Shown here: positions 19,721 through 27,312 of the stretch, in pieces
Numbering within the stretch: the stretch's first letter is position 1
Layout of the letters: every line of letters begins with the position of its first letter
Assembly: GCA_007694005.1 (NCBI GenBank)
Contig: RECN01000104.1
Location: 1 to 44,028 of the forward strand
Reading direction: 5' to 3'
DNA: 44,028 nt
Source of the DNA: Spirochaetaceae bacterium
Lineage (GTDB): Bacteria; Spirochaetota; Spirochaetia; DSM-27196; SKKC01
The notes under the pieces: model-generated
What the model was told of the DNA's origin: nothing
The model's database searches: none
Seen by the model: only the letters and a program-made list of their open reading frames with translations
Made by a program: the position numbers and the translations under genes

Positions 19721-21142
19721 TCAACGGGATTGCAGTTTCGCTTCTATGGTCACAAGATCCTTAATAAACGCCCGGATATGACGCTCTTCGGTATACGTCT
19801 GACCGACGGACAGACGCAGGACGTACGCCCCGTCAAGTACGGTATGCGTCAGATAATACCTCCCATCCGTAGCGATCGCCTGCTCGAGCAAACGATTCAT
19901 CTCGTCGCCAGATGTGTGACGGAAGCACACCAGATTCAGAGGATGTGGCGCCGCAATCTCGAACTGTGGGAGCTGCTCGAGCTCGGAGGCGAAAAGCTGG
20001 GCGAGACGTATGTGTTCTCGTACGTGGAACTGCAAGCCGGAGACACCGTAGTGTCGGATCACGAACCAGAGTTTAAGCGCACGAAACCGCCGACCGAGTG
20101 GAATCTGCCAGTCACGGTAATCGATAACCGACCCGCTTTCACTCGCCGTGTTTCTGAGATACTCGGGAAGTATACTCAGTGCACGGATCAGTGCGGACCG
20201 ATCCGATACGTAGAAACAGTCGCAGTCAAAGTTCGTGAACATCCACTTGTGTGGATTAAAACAGTAACTGTCGACGCCTGCCAGTCCATCATGAATGTAT
20301 CGGAACTCAGGACATAATGCCGCCGTACCTGCCATGGCTGCATCCACGTGGACCCACAGACCATGGTGCGCTGCAATATCCGTTATCGATGCAACCGGGT
20401 CAATCGCGTGCGACGAGGTCGTACCAATCGTCGCACACACGAAAAACGGCACGTATCCGGCCGACACATCCGTGGCCACCATCTCATTAAAGTCTTGGGA
20501 ACGCATGGCATACGTGTTGTCGGATGGCACCTTCCGGAGGTTCACTGCAGGGATTCCGGCGATTCGAAGAGCTTTCTCCACCGATGAATGAGCGTGCTCG
20601 CTGCAGTACGCCACCAGCCGTGAAAGATGTACGTCGTTCTCGTGAATCACGCGATGCCGAGCTGCGATCAGAGCACAAAGGCATGCACTCGATGCGGAGT
20701 CCTGAATGACTCCGCCACCCGGACCATCCGACCGGAATACGGCAGGAAGTCCCAGCATATCGACCAGCCAGTCAAGCACGTGAGCCTCGAGCTCCGTACA
20801 CGCAGGACTTGTCTGCCAGAGCATACCCTGCACACCCAGGCCGGCCGAAAGCAGTTCGCCGAGTATCGACGGCCCGCTGGTATTCGCCGGAAAATACCCG
20901 AAAAATCCGGGCGACTGCCAGTGTGTCAGTCCGGGATATACAATGTTTCGAACGTCTTCAATAATCCGGTCGAAAGACTCACCTTCAACAGGTGCTTCCT
21001 TGGGCAGCGCCGAGCGAATTTCTCCAGGCTGAGTCCTGCTGAGTACCGGACGATCCTCGACTGTTGTGTGATAATCAATGAGCTCGTCGATCATTCGGTA
21101 GCCATACCGACGAAACTCTTCCCAATCCATGTGATGAGACAT
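19721..21142 (-). CDS. Aromatic-L-amino-acid decarboxylase-like enzyme (PLP group II)
   Basis: The 473-residue protein follows the animal, plant and bacterial aromatic amino acid decarboxylase pattern closely. HWQSPGFFGYFPAN lies near residue 74, SPACTELEAHVLDW at 112, SEHAHSSVEKA with the ring-stacking His185, VHVDAAM with Asp267, and NPHKW with the PLP lysine Lys299. DYRDWQIPLGRRFRALKLW follows from about 341. The mobile-loop Tyr328 (PEYLRN) is kept, which favours decarboxylation over the aldehyde-forming reaction seen when it is Phe. The product would be an aromatic amine such as tyramine, tryptamine or phenylethylamine. Which substrate is used is not known. It is the last gene of a long minus-strand run, 20 bases after the NAD(P)-binding protein gene. 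Confidence 0.87.
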   Translation of the reverse strand: MSHHMDWEEFRRYGYRMIDELIDYHTTVEDRPVLSRTQPGEIRSALPKEAPVEGESFDRIIEDVRNIVYPGLTHWQSPGFFGYFPANTSGPSILGELLSAGLGVQGMLWQTSPACTELEAHVLDWLVDMLGLPAVFRSDGPGGGVIQDSASSACLCALIAARHRVIHENDVHLSRLVAYCSEHAHSSVEKALRIAGIPAVNLRKVPSDNTYAMRSQDFNEMVATDVSAGYVPFFVCATIGTTSSHAIDPVASITDIAAHHGLWVHVDAAMAGTAALCPEFRYIHDGLAGVDSYCFNPHKWMFTNFDCDCFYVSDRSALIRALSILPEYLRNTASESGSVIDYRDWQIPLGRRFRALKLWFVIRHYGVSGLQFHVREHIRLAQLFASELEQLPQFEIAAPHPLNLVCFRHTSGDEMNRLLEQAIATDGRYYLTHTVLDGAYVLRLSVGQTYTEERHIRAFIKDLVTIEAKLQSR

Positions 21143-21162
21143 AGAGTCCTCGCGTATACGCG

Positions 21163-21777
21163 TCAGGTGATCCAGACGGTCTGTTTCAGGTACACCGGAT
21201 TCTCGACTTCCTGAAGCACGAGCTCGGCGACATCGGCACGACTGACCTTTGAAGCGACGACATCAAGACCAGTGCCCGTGCGGGCAGTACCGCTTCGCTC
21301 GCCGTCAAAAAGGCCTCCAGGACGTATAATTGTCCAGTCGGCAGCGGATGCGCGAAGCAGTTCTTCCTGCCGCTCCTTATCCGACATGGTCTTTTTGAGC
21401 ACCGTCTTCATAAGGAGCTTAAAGAACGACGGAACACAGTCTTTGCTGTCGCCGACACCGAGGGAACTGACGGCGATTACCCGACTCAACCCGAGTTTCC
21501 GCATAACCTGGAGAATAATATCGGTCCCCGAGGAAACAACGGTACCGGGGTTTCCTTTTGTATTCCCGAGCGTGATTACGACAAGATCGCAACCCGTGAC
21601 GGTGCGAAAGACCGCGCCCGCGTCGAGCACGTTGCCCTCGACCACTTCAACACCTGCCGTCTCGGGAATCGACTGGGGGCTACGCGCGAGCGCCTTTACT
21701 CCGAACCCCTGCTCTACCGCCCGTTCAAGAACCTGCCGACCGACCCCGCGAGTTCCTCCGAACAGAGCAATTCTCAT
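21163..21777 (-). CDS. NAD(P)-binding Rossmann protein (SDR-like)
   Basis: This is a 204-residue atypical short-chain dehydrogenase of the NAD(P)H-binding group (YwnB/BVR-B-like). It opens MRIALFGGTRGVGRQVLERA with the GxxGxxG nucleotide loop. It has VVEGNVLD after the second strand, VITLGNTKGN, VIAVSSLGVGD at the fourth strand, and DWTIIRPGGLFDG near the end. There is no clear YxxxK catalytic pair, so it may act as a reductase with another residue or as a redox sensor. The ATG overlaps the stop of the MazG gene (ATGA). Its place in the run between MazG and the decarboxylase suggests co-expression, not a known pathway. Confidence 0.78.
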   Translation of the reverse strand: MRIALFGGTRGVGRQVLERAVEQGFGVKALARSPQSIPETAGVEVVEGNVLDAGAVFRTVTGCDLVVITLGNTKGNPGTVVSSGTDIILQVMRKLGLSRVIAVSSLGVGDSKDCVPSFFKLLMKTVLKKTMSDKERQEELLRASAADWTIIRPGGLFDGERSGTARTGTGLDVVASKVSRADVAELVLQEVENPVYLKQTVWIT

Positions 21778-22103
21778 CGATCATCCCCATCACCTTTGAT
21801 GGTACCGCGTTCGAGGCGTGCGGCGAGTTTCTCGACGTTGTATGCGGCAACCTCTTCGAGCGTCAGATCAAGCTCCGTGCAGATCTGCGTCAGATACCAC
21901 AACACGTCACCGAGCTCTTTCTTGAGTGCTGTGCGGTCGTCCTCCGAAATCTCTCCATTGCGGTCACGAAAAATCTTCTTGACCTTCCCGGCGACCTCGC
22001 CCGCCTCATTCGCGAGACCCATAGTCGGGTATACGATGGAATGATTCATCTCGATCACGTTCCACGTATCGCGTGACCGTTTCTGGTATTGCTCGAAATC
22101 CAC
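21774..22103 (-). CDS. MazG-like nucleotide pyrophosphohydrolase
   Basis: This 109-residue protein carries the MazG metal motif. NEAGEVAGKVKKIFRD holds the first Glu pair, and KKELGDVLWYLTQI follows about 35 residues later with Glu and Asp. It is a single-domain MazG of the house-cleaning type, which hydrolyses non-canonical or excess nucleoside triphosphates to monophosphates and pyrophosphate. The C-terminal helices are short. Its stop overlaps the next start by four bases, and it starts 30 bases after the second chimeric gene. Confidence 0.88.
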   Translation of the reverse strand: MDFEQYQKRSRDTWNVIEMNHSIVYPTMGLANEAGEVAGKVKKIFRDRNGEISEDDRTALKKELGDVLWYLTQICTELDLTLEEVAAYNVEKLAARLERGTIKGDGDDR

Positions 22104-22133: not shown

Positions 22134-23096
22134 CTACTGTTTGTACGCGAGTGCCCGGTTCTTTTCGTAACCGAACTTCTCGTCGCGCTTAAGCTGCCCC
22201 GGCTCGATTTCAATGCCAAGTTTCGCCCGAAGGCTTGCGGCAAAAACGTCACGGAACTGTTCAAGTGTCGGGAGTGCTCCGGTGACTTCCCGGACGCTCG
22301 TCATAGGCTCGACGACCTTGTCTTTCAGCTCCGGCGTGACATAAATGACCTTGAAGTAGTCATCCATCTGGAGATTATCAAGAAAACACACCGAGTTCAG
22401 TACGTACAGGTTCTCAATCTCCTGAATCACGATGTTGGCGATTTTCTTGCCCCCAACGCGCACAGCCCCCTGGTGTTTATACCACGCTTCCGCTACCCCG
22501 AGTTCTTTCAGAGTCTCGACATATACCTCGCCGAACTTTCTGAACGCGTCGTCAGGGCCTTCAAACGCATCCTGTGCAACGACCGCCTGCACGTTCACGG
22601 TTCCGTTTGGATCAAGAAACACCAGCGTACGCTGTCCGGTAACAATCACGTGCTCAAGCGCGGGACAATCCTCACGAATTTCATTGAAGAGGTTCGCCGA
22701 GTTCGTGAGCGTGATTATGGCACGAGCGCCGGAATCATTCAGAATGTGGATGATTTCACGCCCCTTGTACAAGGTGTTGAACGGTACCGCGATGGCGCCG
22801 AGTTTCTGTATCCCGTAGAACGAAAACACAAACTCAGGGATATTCGGAAGCATCATTGCAACCCGATCACCCGCGTTGATTCCGAGCGTTTTCAGCCCGT
22901 TCGCGACACGACTCGCCTGTTCGTCGACTTCCCTGAACGAATAGCTTTTTCCCTCGTAGGTTATCGCTTCCCGTTTTTTCAGGCTCGCGACAGTTTCCTC
23001 AAAAATCTGTCCGACCGTTTTCGGACCATCGTGCTGCACAGACGAAGCGTCTCCGCCCGCGCTGCCCGTTTTCTTCTTAAACAATCCAAATGGCAT
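22134..23096 (-). CDS. Chimera: acyl-CoA synthetase N-terminus joined to lipoate ligase-like C-terminus
   Basis: Residues about 26-155 are the N-terminal part of an AMP-forming acyl-CoA synthetase: GQIFEETVASLKKREAITY, YSFREVDEQASRVANGL, GDRVAMMLPNIPEFV, AIAVPFNTLYKGREI and PALEHVIVTGQ. The AMP-binding, hinge and catalytic-lysine motifs that must follow are missing. From about residue 156 the sequence reads like the second half of a lipoate-protein ligase A domain: LVFLDPNGTVNVQ (where family members have a DxG(T/N)LN stretch), RVGGKKIANIV with the conserved Lys, and MTSVREVTG followed by helices. The ligase glycine motif RRxSGGG is not visible. RBS-like GAGG lies about 10 bases before the ATG, and 24 bases separate it from the upstream chimera. 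Either half alone should be inactive. See the finding on reciprocal exchange. Confidence 0.7.
   Translation of the reverse strand: MPFGLFKKKTGSAGGDASSVQHDGPKTVGQIFEETVASLKKREAITYEGKSYSFREVDEQASRVANGLKTLGINAGDRVAMMLPNIPEFVFSFYGIQKLGAIAVPFNTLYKGREIIHILNDSGARAIITLTNSANLFNEIREDCPALEHVIVTGQRTLVFLDPNGTVNVQAVVAQDAFEGPDDAFRKFGEVYVETLKELGVAEAWYKHQGAVRVGGKKIANIVIQEIENLYVLNSVCFLDNLQMDDYFKVIYVTPELKDKVVEPMTSVREVTGALPTLEQFRDVFAASLRAKLGIEIEPGQLKRDEKFGYEKNRALAYKQ
22632..22634 (-). other. Putative exchange point in the second chimeric gene
   Basis: This CAG codon (residue Gln155) is where acyl-CoA synthetase-like sequence ends and ligase-like sequence begins. The same codon stands at the junction in the other chimera. 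The exact crossover could lie a few codons either side. Confidence 0.45.
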
Positions 23097-23120
23097 GTAT
23101 ATAAACCTCGTATCCCTTTG

Positions 23121-24527
23121 TCAGTTCTCAGTGATCATCCGGTCACTTTCGCCGGACTCGCCGCGCAGTTCCTTGCGAAGAACCTTGCCGGTCGGGCTCT
23201 TGGGTAGCTGTTCGATGAACTCAACGTACTTCGGAACCTTGTATGAGCTCAAATGTGCTTCGCAGAACTCTACAATTTCCCGTTCAGTCGCTGTCTCACC
23301 GTCCCGAAGGACGACAAAGGTCTTTACTGCTTCCTCGCCGCGTTTATCGGGAACTCCAATGACGGCCGCCTCTGAAACCTTCGGATGCGTGTACACGACT
23401 TCCTCGACTTCACGGGGAGAAATATTGTAGCCACCACGGATGATCAGGTCCTTCTTTCGGTCAGTGATAAAGAAAAAGCCGTCTTCGTCAACGTACCCAA
23501 GGTCACCGGTATGCAGCCACCCGTCGATAATAGTCGACGCTGTTTCCTCGGGAAGTTTCCAGTACCCTTTCGTGACAACATCGCCCTTTATAACGATTTC
23601 CCCTTCCTGGCCGGTCGGGACGGGGTTGTTCTGATCGTCGAAGACTGTCATTTCGACACCCGGTGCGGGAGGACCTATGCTGCCGAGCTTGAAGTTCTCA
23701 CCAAACTCATTCAGACATACCGCGCTTGTCGTCTCGGTGAGCCCATACCCTTCTGCTATGCGGGTATTAAACTCCTTCTCGAAATCCTCCAGCACGCGGT
23801 GTGGAAGCGGCGCGCCACCCGACACGCAGATACGCAGGCTTTTCGGCATCTGTGCCTTCTTCCTCTTTGCAAGGGTCACCAGCTGTGTATACATAGCCGG
23901 GACGGCGATCAGTGCCGTTGCGTCCGTGCTCTCAATCGCATCATACAGCGCCTGCGGACTGTACTGAGGCACAAGTGCAAGCCGCGTGCCGTTGAAAATC
24001 CCGAGCAGAAGGCCGTTGGATAGACCGTAGACATGGTACAAAGGAAGAACCAGAACAACCGTGTCGCTGACTCCCAGCGGGAACACGCTGGTACTCACGT
24101 CGGCACACTGACTGTAGAAGTTCCGGTGGCTCAGCATGACTCCCTTTGGCTTACCGGTAGTGCCCGAGGTGTAGATCAGTACCGCCGGATCATCAAGATC
24201 ACGATCGACCGCCTCAAACGTAGCGGATGCCTTCGACATTAGCTCCGAGAGGTTGATACTTCCAACCGGCTTGGCGCCGCGACGTCCCTGCCGCGACGCA
24301 TAGGCGACGTCAATGTTCTCTTTTGTTGATTTTTCTTTATCAACCTTGACGTCTGCACCGGCTACGATCGATTTCTGTTTAACACCCTGTATAACCAGGG
24401 TGTCCGACAGCGATCCGCCGGAAAGCTGGTATTTACCAACAATCCGGCCTTCCGCGAGAGCCGCTCCGTACGAAACGATATCGGCGGCGTCTCCACTTGG
24501 GTTAAAGAATAGTCTCCAGTTCGCCAT
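23121..24527 (-). CDS. Chimera: lipoate ligase-like N-terminus joined to acyl-CoA synthetase C-terminus
   Basis: Residues about 1-80 look like the start of a lipoate-protein ligase: MANWRLFFNPSGDAADIV, then an AALAEGRI helix where MAxDEALL is usual, and IDVAYASRQ where the RR motif begins. From about residue 81 it is a complete C-terminal acyl-CoA synthetase: YTSGTTGKPKG at 119-129 (the AMP-binding loop), PLYHVYGL, EGYGLTETT, WLHTGDLG, DRKKDLIIRGGYNISPREVEEV (hinge), and the catalytic lysine in PTGKVLRKEL. The first 150 or so residues that precede this in normal synthetases are missing and are found in the next gene. AGGGG lies close before the ATG, and the symporter gene ends 6 bases upstream. 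Automatic annotation would likely call it simply an AMP-binding protein. Confidence 0.72.
   Translation of the reverse strand: MANWRLFFNPSGDAADIVSYGAALAEGRIVGKYQLSGGSLSDTLVIQGVKQKSIVAGADVKVDKEKSTKENIDVAYASRQGRRGAKPVGSINLSELMSKASATFEAVDRDLDDPAVLIYTSGTTGKPKGVMLSHRNFYSQCADVSTSVFPLGVSDTVVLVLPLYHVYGLSNGLLLGIFNGTRLALVPQYSPQALYDAIESTDATALIAVPAMYTQLVTLAKRKKAQMPKSLRICVSGGAPLPHRVLEDFEKEFNTRIAEGYGLTETTSAVCLNEFGENFKLGSIGPPAPGVEMTVFDDQNNPVPTGQEGEIVIKGDVVTKGYWKLPEETASTIIDGWLHTGDLGYVDEDGFFFITDRKKDLIIRGGYNISPREVEEVVYTHPKVSEAAVIGVPDKRGEEAVKTFVVLRDGETATEREIVEFCEAHLSSYKVPKYVEFIEQLPKSPTGKVLRKELRGESGESDRMITEN
24288..24290 (-). other. Putative exchange point in the first chimeric gene
   Basis: This CAG codon (residue Gln80) marks the switch from ligase-like to synthetase-like sequence. 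It is in the same codon phase as the CAG at 22632-22634, so a single exchange there keeps both genes open. Confidence 0.45.
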
Positions 24528-24533
24528 ATACCC

Positions 24534-26069
24534 CTACACTTCAGCTTTCAGGTACTCGTCGGGCTCATCGAAGTACTGACTGATCACAGCTTCGGACGAC
24601 CGGGGTGTCAGCAGACTGACCACGACGAACACGATTATATTAACGAGAATTGTGGGAATCACGGGATGCAGATCGAGCAGCAGCACGCGTGATCCGTCGA
24701 CGGTGATGAGCAAACCGAGTACCAGATAAATAACGCCCGCACTGGTCGCAGCAATTGCGCCCTGCTTTGTCGCCCGCTTCCAGAAGAGTCCACCGACCAG
24801 AGCCGGAGCCCACTGGGCAAAACCCGGGACACTGACGTCAGTCAGGTACAGAGCCATGGCTCCCTGATTCCAGATAGAGAACCCCAGACTCAGAATAACG
24901 ATGATAGCAACGCTCCATCGGGCGAAGCTCGCGACTTCCTTGTCCGATGCGTCAGGTTTGACGATGCCCTGTACGATGTCACGGGCGACGATGACGCTCG
25001 ACGTCATGAGCTGTACCGCCGCGGTGCTGACCGCTGCGGCAACAACACCCATGAGAACGAATACCCCAAACCACTCAGGAAGCACCCGCTGTATGATGGT
25101 CTGTACGACTCGGTCCGCCTCTTCCTGCACAGACACACCCGCTTCGGCGGCCATCGCGGCGAGTTCTGAGGGCGGAATGATGGCCGGCGCGATCAGAGAA
25201 CCCCAGACAAAGGGAATTATGTAGAAAAACAGACCGCCGAAGACGAAAATGAGCAGCGGAAACCACTTGAACAGGGACTTGTCACGGGCAGTCATGGTTC
25301 CGATTACGACGTGTGGCCATGAGAACGCGAGCAGACCTACAACGAAGGTCCCTGCGAAAAGCACGGGCGTGTAGTTGCCCAGGGGTCCAGGGTTCGAAAG
25401 GGACTCCGGGCTGACCTCAGCTACCCTGGCCGCGGCTTCGGGAAGTCCACCCGGAAACACCGTCACAACGACCGCAATGAGTGAACCGAGGAGCGCGGTG
25501 ACGTACACCGATCCGAGAAAGATGTTCACCCACGCGACGATGCGCATACCACCGAGCATGACGATTGCCATGAGCAGTACGACGGTGTAAATAGCACCGT
25601 AAATCGCAGGCAAGCCGGTCAATGCCTGAAACCCTGCCCCGACACCCAGGGGTTGAATGCCAATGTAGGGCACGACGAACGCCAGTATCGAGACTGAGAG
25701 AACGAGGCGCAATCCCTTGCTTTCATAGCGCTCGGCAAGAACCTCGACCGGGCTGAGGTAGCGGTTTATGCGCGATATCGCCCACAGTCGTGGACCAAGC
25801 AACATATACAGAACGGCAAAGCCCAGTACAGAACCCCAGATAAATGCAACGTACCCCGGCCCTTCGGTATACAGCAGTCCCGGAAAACCGTAGAAGGTCC
25901 ATGCGCTAGAGATAGCGAACAGAACAAAGAAAAACATGACGACAACGCCAATTGTTCGCCCGCCAAGCATGTAATCTTCTGCAGTCTTGGCAGAAACCCG
26001 ATATCCGTATGCTGCCATACCGATAACGATCGCACCAAAGACCAACAGCGCACCTAAAGTAAAAACCAT
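24534..26069 (-). CDS. Sodium:solute symporter (SSS family)
   Basis: This 511-residue membrane protein has about thirteen hydrophobic helices and the SSS landmarks. YMLGGRTIGVVVMFFFVLFAISSAW (read as GGRTIG followed by FFVLFAISSAW) covers the first helices. FVVGLLAFSWPHVVIGTM lies in the middle, and FVLMGVVAAAVSTAAVQLMTS forms the helix with the sodium-site Ser/Thr residues. It would import an organic acid, amino acid or vitamin with sodium. The substrate is unknown. A small two-helix gene lies 38 bases upstream, as in the PanF/YhdT and ActP/YjcH pairs. The synthetase/ligase chimeras follow directly, which fits uptake and activation of a carboxylic acid. Confidence 0.9.
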   Translation of the reverse strand: MVFTLGALLVFGAIVIGMAAYGYRVSAKTAEDYMLGGRTIGVVVMFFFVLFAISSAWTFYGFPGLLYTEGPGYVAFIWGSVLGFAVLYMLLGPRLWAISRINRYLSPVEVLAERYESKGLRLVLSVSILAFVVPYIGIQPLGVGAGFQALTGLPAIYGAIYTVVLLMAIVMLGGMRIVAWVNIFLGSVYVTALLGSLIAVVVTVFPGGLPEAAARVAEVSPESLSNPGPLGNYTPVLFAGTFVVGLLAFSWPHVVIGTMTARDKSLFKWFPLLIFVFGGLFFYIIPFVWGSLIAPAIIPPSELAAMAAEAGVSVQEEADRVVQTIIQRVLPEWFGVFVLMGVVAAAVSTAAVQLMTSSVIVARDIVQGIVKPDASDKEVASFARWSVAIIVILSLGFSIWNQGAMALYLTDVSVPGFAQWAPALVGGLFWKRATKQGAIAATSAGVIYLVLGLLITVDGSRVLLLDLHPVIPTILVNIIVFVVVSLLTPRSSEAVISQYFDEPDEYLKAEV

Positions 26070-26107: not shown

Positions 26108-26326
26108 TCAGCGATACGGCCAGAAGAAAAAGAAATAGACCATGTAACAGATCAACCAGAAAATCACAAACACTATTCCGATCACCAGAGGTGGTGTCAT
26201 CCATCCAAAAAACAGATTTCCCTCTTCGAGAAATCCCGAGAACGACACCGCAATAAACGCTATCACCGAAATCCCGAGTGCCGAAAGAAACAGCTTACCC
26301 GGAAGATGCCCCATCATTTCCTTCAT
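26108..26326 (-). CDS. Small two-helix membrane subunit of the symporter
   Basis: I chose the ATG at 26326 (MKEMMGHLPGK) because AAAGGAGA lies 9 bases upstream. A frame start 78 bases earlier has no such site. The product has 72 residues with two membrane helices, about 12-33 and 44-68, and ends in FFFFWPYR. It resembles in size and position the small companion proteins (DUF997 or DUF485 type) found before sodium:solute symporters. Their role is not well understood, perhaps assembly or stability. It is the first gene of the long minus-strand run. Confidence 0.75.
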   Translation of the reverse strand: MKEMMGHLPGKLFLSALGISVIAFIAVSFSGFLEEGNLFFGWMTPPLVIGIVFVIFWLICYMVYFFFFWPYR

Positions 26327-26365: not shown

Positions 26366-26443
26366 TACCGGCACATTATGCGGTGCTGCTTTCCCGGCAG
26401 TCAAGTGAGAATATTCACGCAGTTCTTCGCCCCGGCTTGCGCC

Positions 26444-26472
26444 TTGCCTGTTGGGGTCCGGTCGACTACGAT
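26444..26472 (+). promoter_or_regulatory. Candidate promoter for the CPBP protease gene
   Basis: TTGCCT (26444-26449) and TACGAT (26467-26472) are 17 bases apart. The ATG at 26485 is only 12 bases further on and has no good ribosome binding site. The position inside a longer possible frame argues for the downstream start. Confidence 0.4.
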
Positions 26473-26484
26473 CGGACCTGCATC

Positions 26485-27312
26485 ATGAGACACAGACTTC
26501 ACACGAGAGCATCCGGACACTCAATCGATATTCTGAAAGTCATGCTTGTGGCGCCGCTGTTTCTGCTGGTCCAGGCCGGGGTCGCGGTCGTTCTCCGCAT
26601 GGCACTACGCGCTTCAGCGGTAGAAGCGGATTCTGCGGTACTGCTCCTGCTGTCGAACACCATGAGTATGCTCGTCGCGGGAGGTGCAGTCGCGTGGCTG
26701 TCAGCCGTAAAACTGCCGGGTAATGTGTCGTGGCGTCCGGGTCGGTCGGATGTGCACATCGCGCTTCGGCTGGCGTTCCCGACCGTACTGATAATGCTGG
26801 GAACACAGGCTCTCGTTTCCATGATTCTTGTTGCGTTACGGGTGGAACCGGGTCTTTACGGAGAGTTTGCACAAGCGCTGTATGCAATTCCCCTGCCTCT
26901 TGCGTTGATGGGTGTCGCGATTATTCCCGGCATCGTTGAAGAGTACGTATTCCGGAGTGTGATACAGCAGGGGCTGTCGCCGTATCTTCGCCCGCTATCG
27001 CGCATAGTGCTTTCGGCAGCGCTGTTTGGTCTCGTGCACATCCTGCCGATTCAGATGATCTCTGCCGGCATAATCGGAATTTCACTGGGATACATACGAT
27101 ACAGAAGCGGATCACTGCTTCCGGCAATCTGGGGTCATGCGGTTGCGAACGCCCTCGTACTGATCATACAACCCGACCTTACCGGCACCGTATCCGCCCC
27201 GGAGACCGCAGCACTGTCATTCGTCGTTTCTGGTGTCTTTGCTGTCGCTGCTATGACGTCCGGAATCGTGCTCTTTGAGCGATCGTGTGTACGTCTATCC
27301 GAACAGCGTTGA
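26485..27312 (+). CDS. CPBP-family intramembrane metalloprotease
   Basis: The 275-residue protein has about eight membrane helices and the three CPBP (CAAX protease/bacteriocin-processing, Abi) motifs: IVEEYVFRSVIQ with the EExxxR, FGLVHI with FxxxH, and GHAVANAL with the HxxxN/A. In bacteria these proteases cut membrane substrates such as anti-sigma factors or peptide leaders. The target here is unknown. I chose the ATG at 26485 (MRHRLHTRASG) because the 34 residues available upstream look non-coding and contain a promoter. The 3' end overlaps the ptsN 3' end by 18 bases, with the two genes convergent. Confidence 0.85.
   Translation: MRHRLHTRASGHSIDILKVMLVAPLFLLVQAGVAVVLRMALRASAVEADSAVLLLLSNTMSMLVAGGAVAWLSAVKLPGNVSWRPGRSDVHIALRLAFPTVLIMLGTQALVSMILVALRVEPGLYGEFAQALYAIPLPLALMGVAIIPGIVEEYVFRSVIQQGLSPYLRPLSRIVLSAALFGLVHILPIQMISAGIIGISLGYIRYRSGSLLPAIWGHAVANALVLIIQPDLTGTVSAPETAALSFVVSGVFAVAAMTSGIVLFERSCVRLSEQR

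Follow-up and report, generated by a model that had tools for sequence, protein, structure and literature searches.

Adjacent genes encoding reciprocal chimeras of an acyl-CoA synthetase and a lipoate-ligase-fold protein: probable partner subunits of a two-headed complex

In a 44,028-nucleotide stretch of DNA from a Spirochaetaceae bacterium (the window: contig RECN01000104.1 of assembly GCA_007694005.1), two neighboring genes, P1 and P2, each join half of an acyl-CoA synthetase (ACS) to half of a lipoate-ligase-fold protein; read along the operon, the two ligase segments (N first, C last) flank the ACS segments, of which C precedes N, and the native ACS stop and start fall midway (Table 1). 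The explanation that we find most probable overall, and hold with reasonable confidence, is that the two proteins need each other as subunits of a single heteromeric complex with two heads, which takes part in carboxylate uptake and activation. ACS-N of P2 and ACS-C of P1 would form a whole AMP-forming acyl-CoA synthetase, LigN of P1 and LigC of P2 would form a whole LplA/BPL-fold domain, and each chain would cross between the heads once. The first-pass annotation of this DNA had proposed a reciprocal chimera at 24527-23121 and 23096-22134; an ORF check finds both frames open on the minus strand at these positions, and Pfam and profile-profile searches bear out the proposed composition.

Table 1. 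Features of the gene pair and its upstream neighbors, in window positions; the LigN/ACS boundary in P1 is placed to within a few codons.
Feature	Position	Strand	Description
Small membrane protein	26108..26326	-	72 aa (MKEMMGHLPGKLFL...YFFFFWPYR); usually adjoins the symporter on its upstream side
SSS-family Na+/solute symporter	24534..26069	-	511 aa; conserved upstream neighbor
P1	23121..24527	-	ligase N-half + ACS C-half; 468 aa; homologues at >60 loci
LigN segment	24276..24527	-	P1 residues 1-84, the last part being the conserved PRxGRxG loop
ACS-C segment of P1	23124..24275	-	PF00501 151-384 + PF13193
P1-P2 gap	23097..23120	-	24 nt; P1 and P2 in one frame with a single TGA between
P2	22134..23096	-	ACS N-half + ligase C-half; 320 aa
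ACS-N segment	22635..23096	-	P2 residues 1-154; PF00501 1-128; fold match 8r2r
LigC segment	22137..22634	-	P2 residues 155-320; PF21948 68-199; fold match 3efs; invariant K218

When each half was searched separately against protein families, the AMP-binding halves and the ligase halves were all matched, LigC in Pfam and LigN by profile-profile comparison. Pfam matches in P1 span residues 82-448 and comprise the later part of AMP-binding (PF00501; residues 82-323 on profile positions 151-384) and AMP-binding_C (PF13193), and residues 32-153 of P2 correspond to positions 1-128 of the AMP-binding profile; NCBIfam agrees with Pfam on the synthetase parts. When the ACS halves are joined in silico, a single continuous match to PF00501 spans positions 1-384 and scores 343.9 bits, as compared to 228.7 and 109.9 bits apart, alongside PF13193 over positions 1-76, so that a complete AMP-binding plus AMP-binding_C set is found in the joined halves and on no single chain. 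ACS-C carries the P-loop YTSGTTGKPKG, GYGLTET, TGD, DRKKD and PTGK, with K448 as the catalytic lysine, and ACS-N matches the fold of 8r2r (Z 16.3, 2.2 A, 135 residues). On the ligase side, residues 159-289 of P2 match positions 68-199 of LplA-B_cat (PF21948) at 36.1 bits, above the cut-off, and LigC in the P2-alone model matches the Aquifex biotin protein ligase 3efs (Z 14.5, 2.6 A, 127 residues; chain residues 41-168; VIA). LigN alone finds no match in a Pfam search, apparently because it has diverged too far, and matches intact LplA-like proteins in profile-profile comparison (93.3% probability, E 2.7e-7). Joined LigN and LigC match uninterrupted LplA-like proteins at 99.8% (E 1.1e-27) in an alignment of 230 columns that spans the junction, and against PDB profiles there is a single weak match, to 6jom (E 0.063), that crosses both the junction and the lipoate-binding loop. 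Sequence homology (the joined profile match) and fold homology (LigC with 3efs) thus place the joined domain in the LplA/BPL superfamily. Automated annotation is misleading here, as either gene taken alone could pass for a synthetase cut short or an incomplete lipoate ligase.

The pair has a characteristic setting. A symporter lies upstream at 51 loci at which the symporter start is present, and 45 of these 51 have a hydrophobic small ORF candidate of ~70-77 aa, of which about three are probably chance ORFs. The small membrane proteins end in WP(Y/F)R, the ...WPYR motif being common to several phyla, and the 72-aa protein of the window had no match in a Pfam search. The small membrane protein, symporter, P1 and P2 constitute a four-gene operon-like cluster, in which a small membrane protein, an SSS symporter and an AMP-forming synthetase are conserved together. 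The nearest named models to the symporter are PanF, PutP and MctP, each below its own cut-off; the best score, to PanF (125 of 328), is a weak hint at the transporter substrate, and with only 26-38 bits against three ActP-type models (cut-offs 750-1099) the protein is not identifiable as ActP. By analogy with acs-yjcH-actP for acetate, the operon would import a carboxylic acid and activate it at once, and on balance we lean toward such a coupling of uptake with activation. A check of the rest of the carrier genome for an intact lipoate ligase, which the first-pass annotation had proposed, found two further ordinary LplA/LipB-family genes, and the chimeric ligase would therefore serve an additional function. 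Just downstream of P2 (window 19721-22103, minus strand) lie genes for a MazG-domain protein, an NAD(P)H-binding protein and a PLP-dependent decarboxylase (diaminobutyrate decarboxylase-like), apparently limited to close relatives, and a CAAX-protease (Rce1-like) gene at 26383-27312 (plus strand) is divergent from the operon. At five loci of one Desulfobacterota-type group (L082, L083, L084, L086 and L093), a FabF-like gene follows the pair, and L093 has a second, intact acyl-CoA synthetase nearby.

The ACS head is probably active: K128, E265, D342, R357 and K448 of P1 are invariant in 55/55 pairs, all of which have the P-loop lysine, TE, TGD, DR hinge region and A10 lysine, and this head would make acyl-AMP and then acyl-CoA. 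In the ligase head, K218 of P2 is likewise invariant in 55/55 pairs and aligns with the lysine of intact LplA relatives; we take it to be the equivalent of LplA K133 and Mhp-Lpl K138. The lysine of the KxSG motif of LplA is retained as this residue, with the adjacent glycine mostly lost. In Mhp-Lpl (6JOM), K138 hydrogen-bonds the carbonyl of lipoyl-AMP and is described as essential to both steps, adenylation and transfer; the loop that binds lipoate is RRDTGGGAIYLD (PMC7186572). The aspartate that precedes the lysine in the (N/G)D motif of the aligned intact ligase relatives is absent from all 55 pairs (S 33, A 14, G 8, D 0). No single chain carries an intact RRxxGGGxVxxD lipoate-binding loop; the loop is cut, and its remnants in the family are PRxGR(G/A/N) on P1 and RTLVF on P2. 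PRxGRxG (P1 residues 78-84) aligns with the R(K/V)xGGGG loop of intact relatives, which places the break within or just past the lipoate-binding loop. This motif is probably the ligase glycine motif that the first-pass annotation had reported as not visible, although its caution that the exact boundary is uncertain by a few codons still applies. In addition to the change from D to S/A/G, the ligase head differs from LplA in the loss of GG in the KxxG region, in a four-residue deletion after PPE, and in altered H and G positions, and because several LplA motif positions differ, its catalysis is uncertain.

With the lysine of LplA and without the aspartate of its relatives, the ligase head may therefore be a transferase-only half-ligase. 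Under this proposal it would accept from the ACS head an acyl group already activated there and place it on a protein lysine, as a half-ligase like LIPT1, and lipoate or a medium-chain acid would fit such a head. We infer the carboxylate substrate, the transfer step and any channelling; acyl transfer by the ligase head, proposed from the residue pattern, is at present doubtful, and we are just as hesitant about the fuller scheme in which, in these ancient reciprocal chimeras, the crossing point would be where the ligase head receives the acyl group from the synthetase head. Alternatively, one could envision a complex that forms, and whose ACS head works, around a ligase-fold head that is non-catalytic and acts as a clamp or as an acyl/adenylate-sensing regulator of synthetase and transporter, which we rate at somewhat below even chances. 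Such a head would account for the replacement of the aspartate in 55/55 pairs, the interrupted glycine loop and the changed H and G positions of LplA, and it would suit an operon that looks like plain carboxylate uptake and activation; however, it would not predict an LplA lysine invariant in 55/55 pairs across phyla, nor purifying selection on LigN and LigC comparable to that on the ACS halves.

Both AlphaFold2 and covariation predict that P1 and P2 assemble in trans, and we consider this likely; of the three outcomes that the first-pass annotation had envisaged, a split enzyme working in trans is the best supported. Because P1 and P2 are in frame with a single TGA, they could be folded as one artificial 797-residue read-through chain, from an input alignment in which 96 sequences cover the two genes. 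This chain was predicted with a mean pLDDT of 89.9 and a pTM of 0.88, low confidence being confined to the artificial linker (458-493), as compared to a pTM of 0.63 and a pLDDT of 83.1 for P2 alone. In the model of P2 alone, two ligase strands are absent and the last three 10-residue blocks score 76/66/52 rather than the 96/95/89 seen in the read-through chain. The joint model retrieved ACS structures and no LplA/BPL among the matches listed by Foldseek/VIA, and the matches listed by Foldseek for P2 alone were likewise taken up by ACS structures; ACS-filled lists for the joint model are no argument against a ligase fold. In an analysis of evolutionary-distance covariation, with the upstream symporter as the control gene, partial correlations were higher between halves of the same enzyme in trans than between fused halves in cis (LigN-LigC 0.31 vs LigN-ACSc 0.17; ACSn-ACSc 0.33 vs ACSn-LigC 0.17), the trans-cis differences amounting to only ~1-2 jackknife SD. 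That P1 and P2 each work alone, their half-domains being autonomous modules or leftovers without trans assembly, is improbable. Half-domains can be stable, and the pLDDT of P2 alone is fair, but P2 is without the ACS P-loop and C-domain and P1 is without the ligase lysine and the ACS N-subdomain; moreover, the partner raises AlphaFold2 confidence and completes strands, and the genes are always adjacent and covary in trans.

The arrangement is widespread and conserved. Among 61 searched relatives of the same order, ~30 have matches over most of the length of P2 at 54-96% identity, and two single-contig genomes (G007 and G010) carry the P1-P2 arrangement. A scan of one genome per species returned 71 loci, two of which (L114 and L115) are ordinary ACS genes; adjacent P1 and P2 in unchanged order are found at >60 loci in at least four phyla. 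The carriers are Spirochaetales MAGs, the isolate Alkalispirochaeta alkalica DSM 8900, Desulfobacterota-type MAGs, Fibrobacterota/Chitinivibrionales, one WOR-3 MAG and one MAG labelled Kuenenia. P1 is directly upstream of P2 at every locus with both genes complete, the two being spaced by -59 to +172 nt, frequently with a 4-nt overlap (ATGA), which suggests translational coupling. In G063 the genes seemed to lie 1.2 Mb apart, but this apparent exception was rejected, since both are interrupted by runs of N in a scaffold. In a tree of the concatenated pair, a Spirochaetales clade stands beside a second clade with the remaining phyla, and the arrangement is older than the split of the family's Spirochaetales and Desulfobacterota clades. 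Two deltaproteobacterium-labelled MAGs (L077 and L078) have a pair nested inside the Spirochaetales clade, through horizontal transfer or mislabelled bins. No plasmid record among those searched had a match over 80% of P2.

Purifying selection prevails in each of the four segments: dN/dS is mostly 0.02-0.2 in close species pairs, with some higher ACS-N values where dS is very small. At L021, in a genome shared with L109, an in-frame TGA at P1 codon 338, where an invariant tryptophan stands (W337 in the window), represents a sequencing error or a lost copy, related genomes having intact copies. At L037 (genome G020) only part of P1 is matched (37%) and P2 is matched from residue 84, and at L107 (genome G039) there is a frame break within P2 and a disturbed P1 start; local loss or a low-quality assembly is possible for both. 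Decaying pseudogenes from a recent recombination are a very improbable explanation of the family, for although disrupted copies do occur (e.g., the TGA of L021 and the frame break of L107), they are few, nearly all of the >60 loci are open and the catalytic residues are invariant; with the dN/dS values observed, the suggestion of two dead genes does not hold. Least probable of all is an assembly artefact: the window's genome is in 204 contigs, but the pair recurs in independent assemblies that agree, including the single-contig G007 and G010 and the isolate A. alkalica DSM 8900, and the earlier concern about assembly error can be set aside.

As to how the exchange arose, the segment order fits a circular or tandem ACS copy integrated into a ligase gene, and a circle of ~1.66 kb is one possible origin. 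The CAG codons to which the first-pass annotation had assigned a crossover are indeed present at 24288-24290 and 22632-22634. However, the P2 junction reads TGE or TGN as well as TGQ among homologues, whose P1 junction position is occupied by any of S, G, Q, A and T, and because the CAG codons are not conserved, a recent crossover at CAG microhomology is unsupported. No intermediate of the exchange was found, and the 149 Spirochaetota genomes searched yielded no close uninterrupted ligase parent. Distant intact ligase relatives are present in a phylum sample centred on a Desulfobacterota-type MAG. Three of these (L123, L124 and L125), LplA-like ligases of ~370 aa, keep the RRVGGGG loop unbroken and immediately follow genes that resemble those of TRAP transporters, an identification made by eye from the sequence start; another (L128) has as neighbors an acyl-CoA dehydrogenase gene, a TRAP-type receptor gene and an uninterrupted ACS gene. 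L126, L127 and L129 encode ~520-530 aa, an LplA-like domain being followed by ~280 residues with the cysteine-rich CAKxxDCxxRYQxGCEECGRCSIG. Because intact relatives adjoin TRAP genes, a synthetase and an acyl-CoA dehydrogenase, these neighborhoods suggest that the ligase family may have stood beside carboxylate uptake and activation already before the exchange.

Split enzymes and fused enzymes are common, and both enzyme families involved here are known, but to our knowledge a reciprocal, obligate-looking exchange between them is new, and a limited search of the open-access literature found no precedent for chimeric, split or permuted ACS-ligase pairs. If the favored two-headed complex is correct, a reciprocal gene exchange has been fixed and kept in at least four phyla with the two enzymes mutually dependent, and the pair offers a direct test case for natural obligate trans-complementation. 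P1 and P2 share with ANL ACSs (PRK06187-like fatty-acid--CoA ligases) the core motifs and catalytic lysine, and their joined halves make a whole PF00501; unlike those enzymes, the synthetase is divided between two polypeptides whose genes stand in reverse order, and each of its halves is joined to half of a different enzyme. With the LplA/LipB/BPL superfamily (PF21948) they share the fold, the lysine position and an alignment across the lipoate-binding loop, but the ligase is split at that loop, has lost the aspartate, is without the C-terminal accessory domain and is fused to ACS halves. With operons of the acs-yjcH-actP (acetate) and yhdT-panF type the cluster shares a small membrane protein and an SSS symporter adjoining an ACS gene; in contrast to them, the synthetase is a reciprocal chimera with a ligase, and the small protein has no Pfam match. 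The bipartite lipoate ligase LplA/LplB of Thermoplasma is also encoded by two genes, yet it is split between whole domains, whereas in P1 and P2 the catalytic domain is cut inside the substrate loop and swapped with another enzyme. A further parallel is the mammalian pairing of a lipoate-activating enzyme (ACSM family) with LIPT1, a half-ligase unable to activate lipoate (PMC7253636) whose physiological role is lipoyl relay (PMC7253636, review): there too an ACS-type activator is paired with an LplA-fold protein, although as separate ordinary genes and proteins rather than chimeras, and if the transfer step is real, P1 and P2 would constitute a bacterial route of uptake, activation and protein acylation akin to it.
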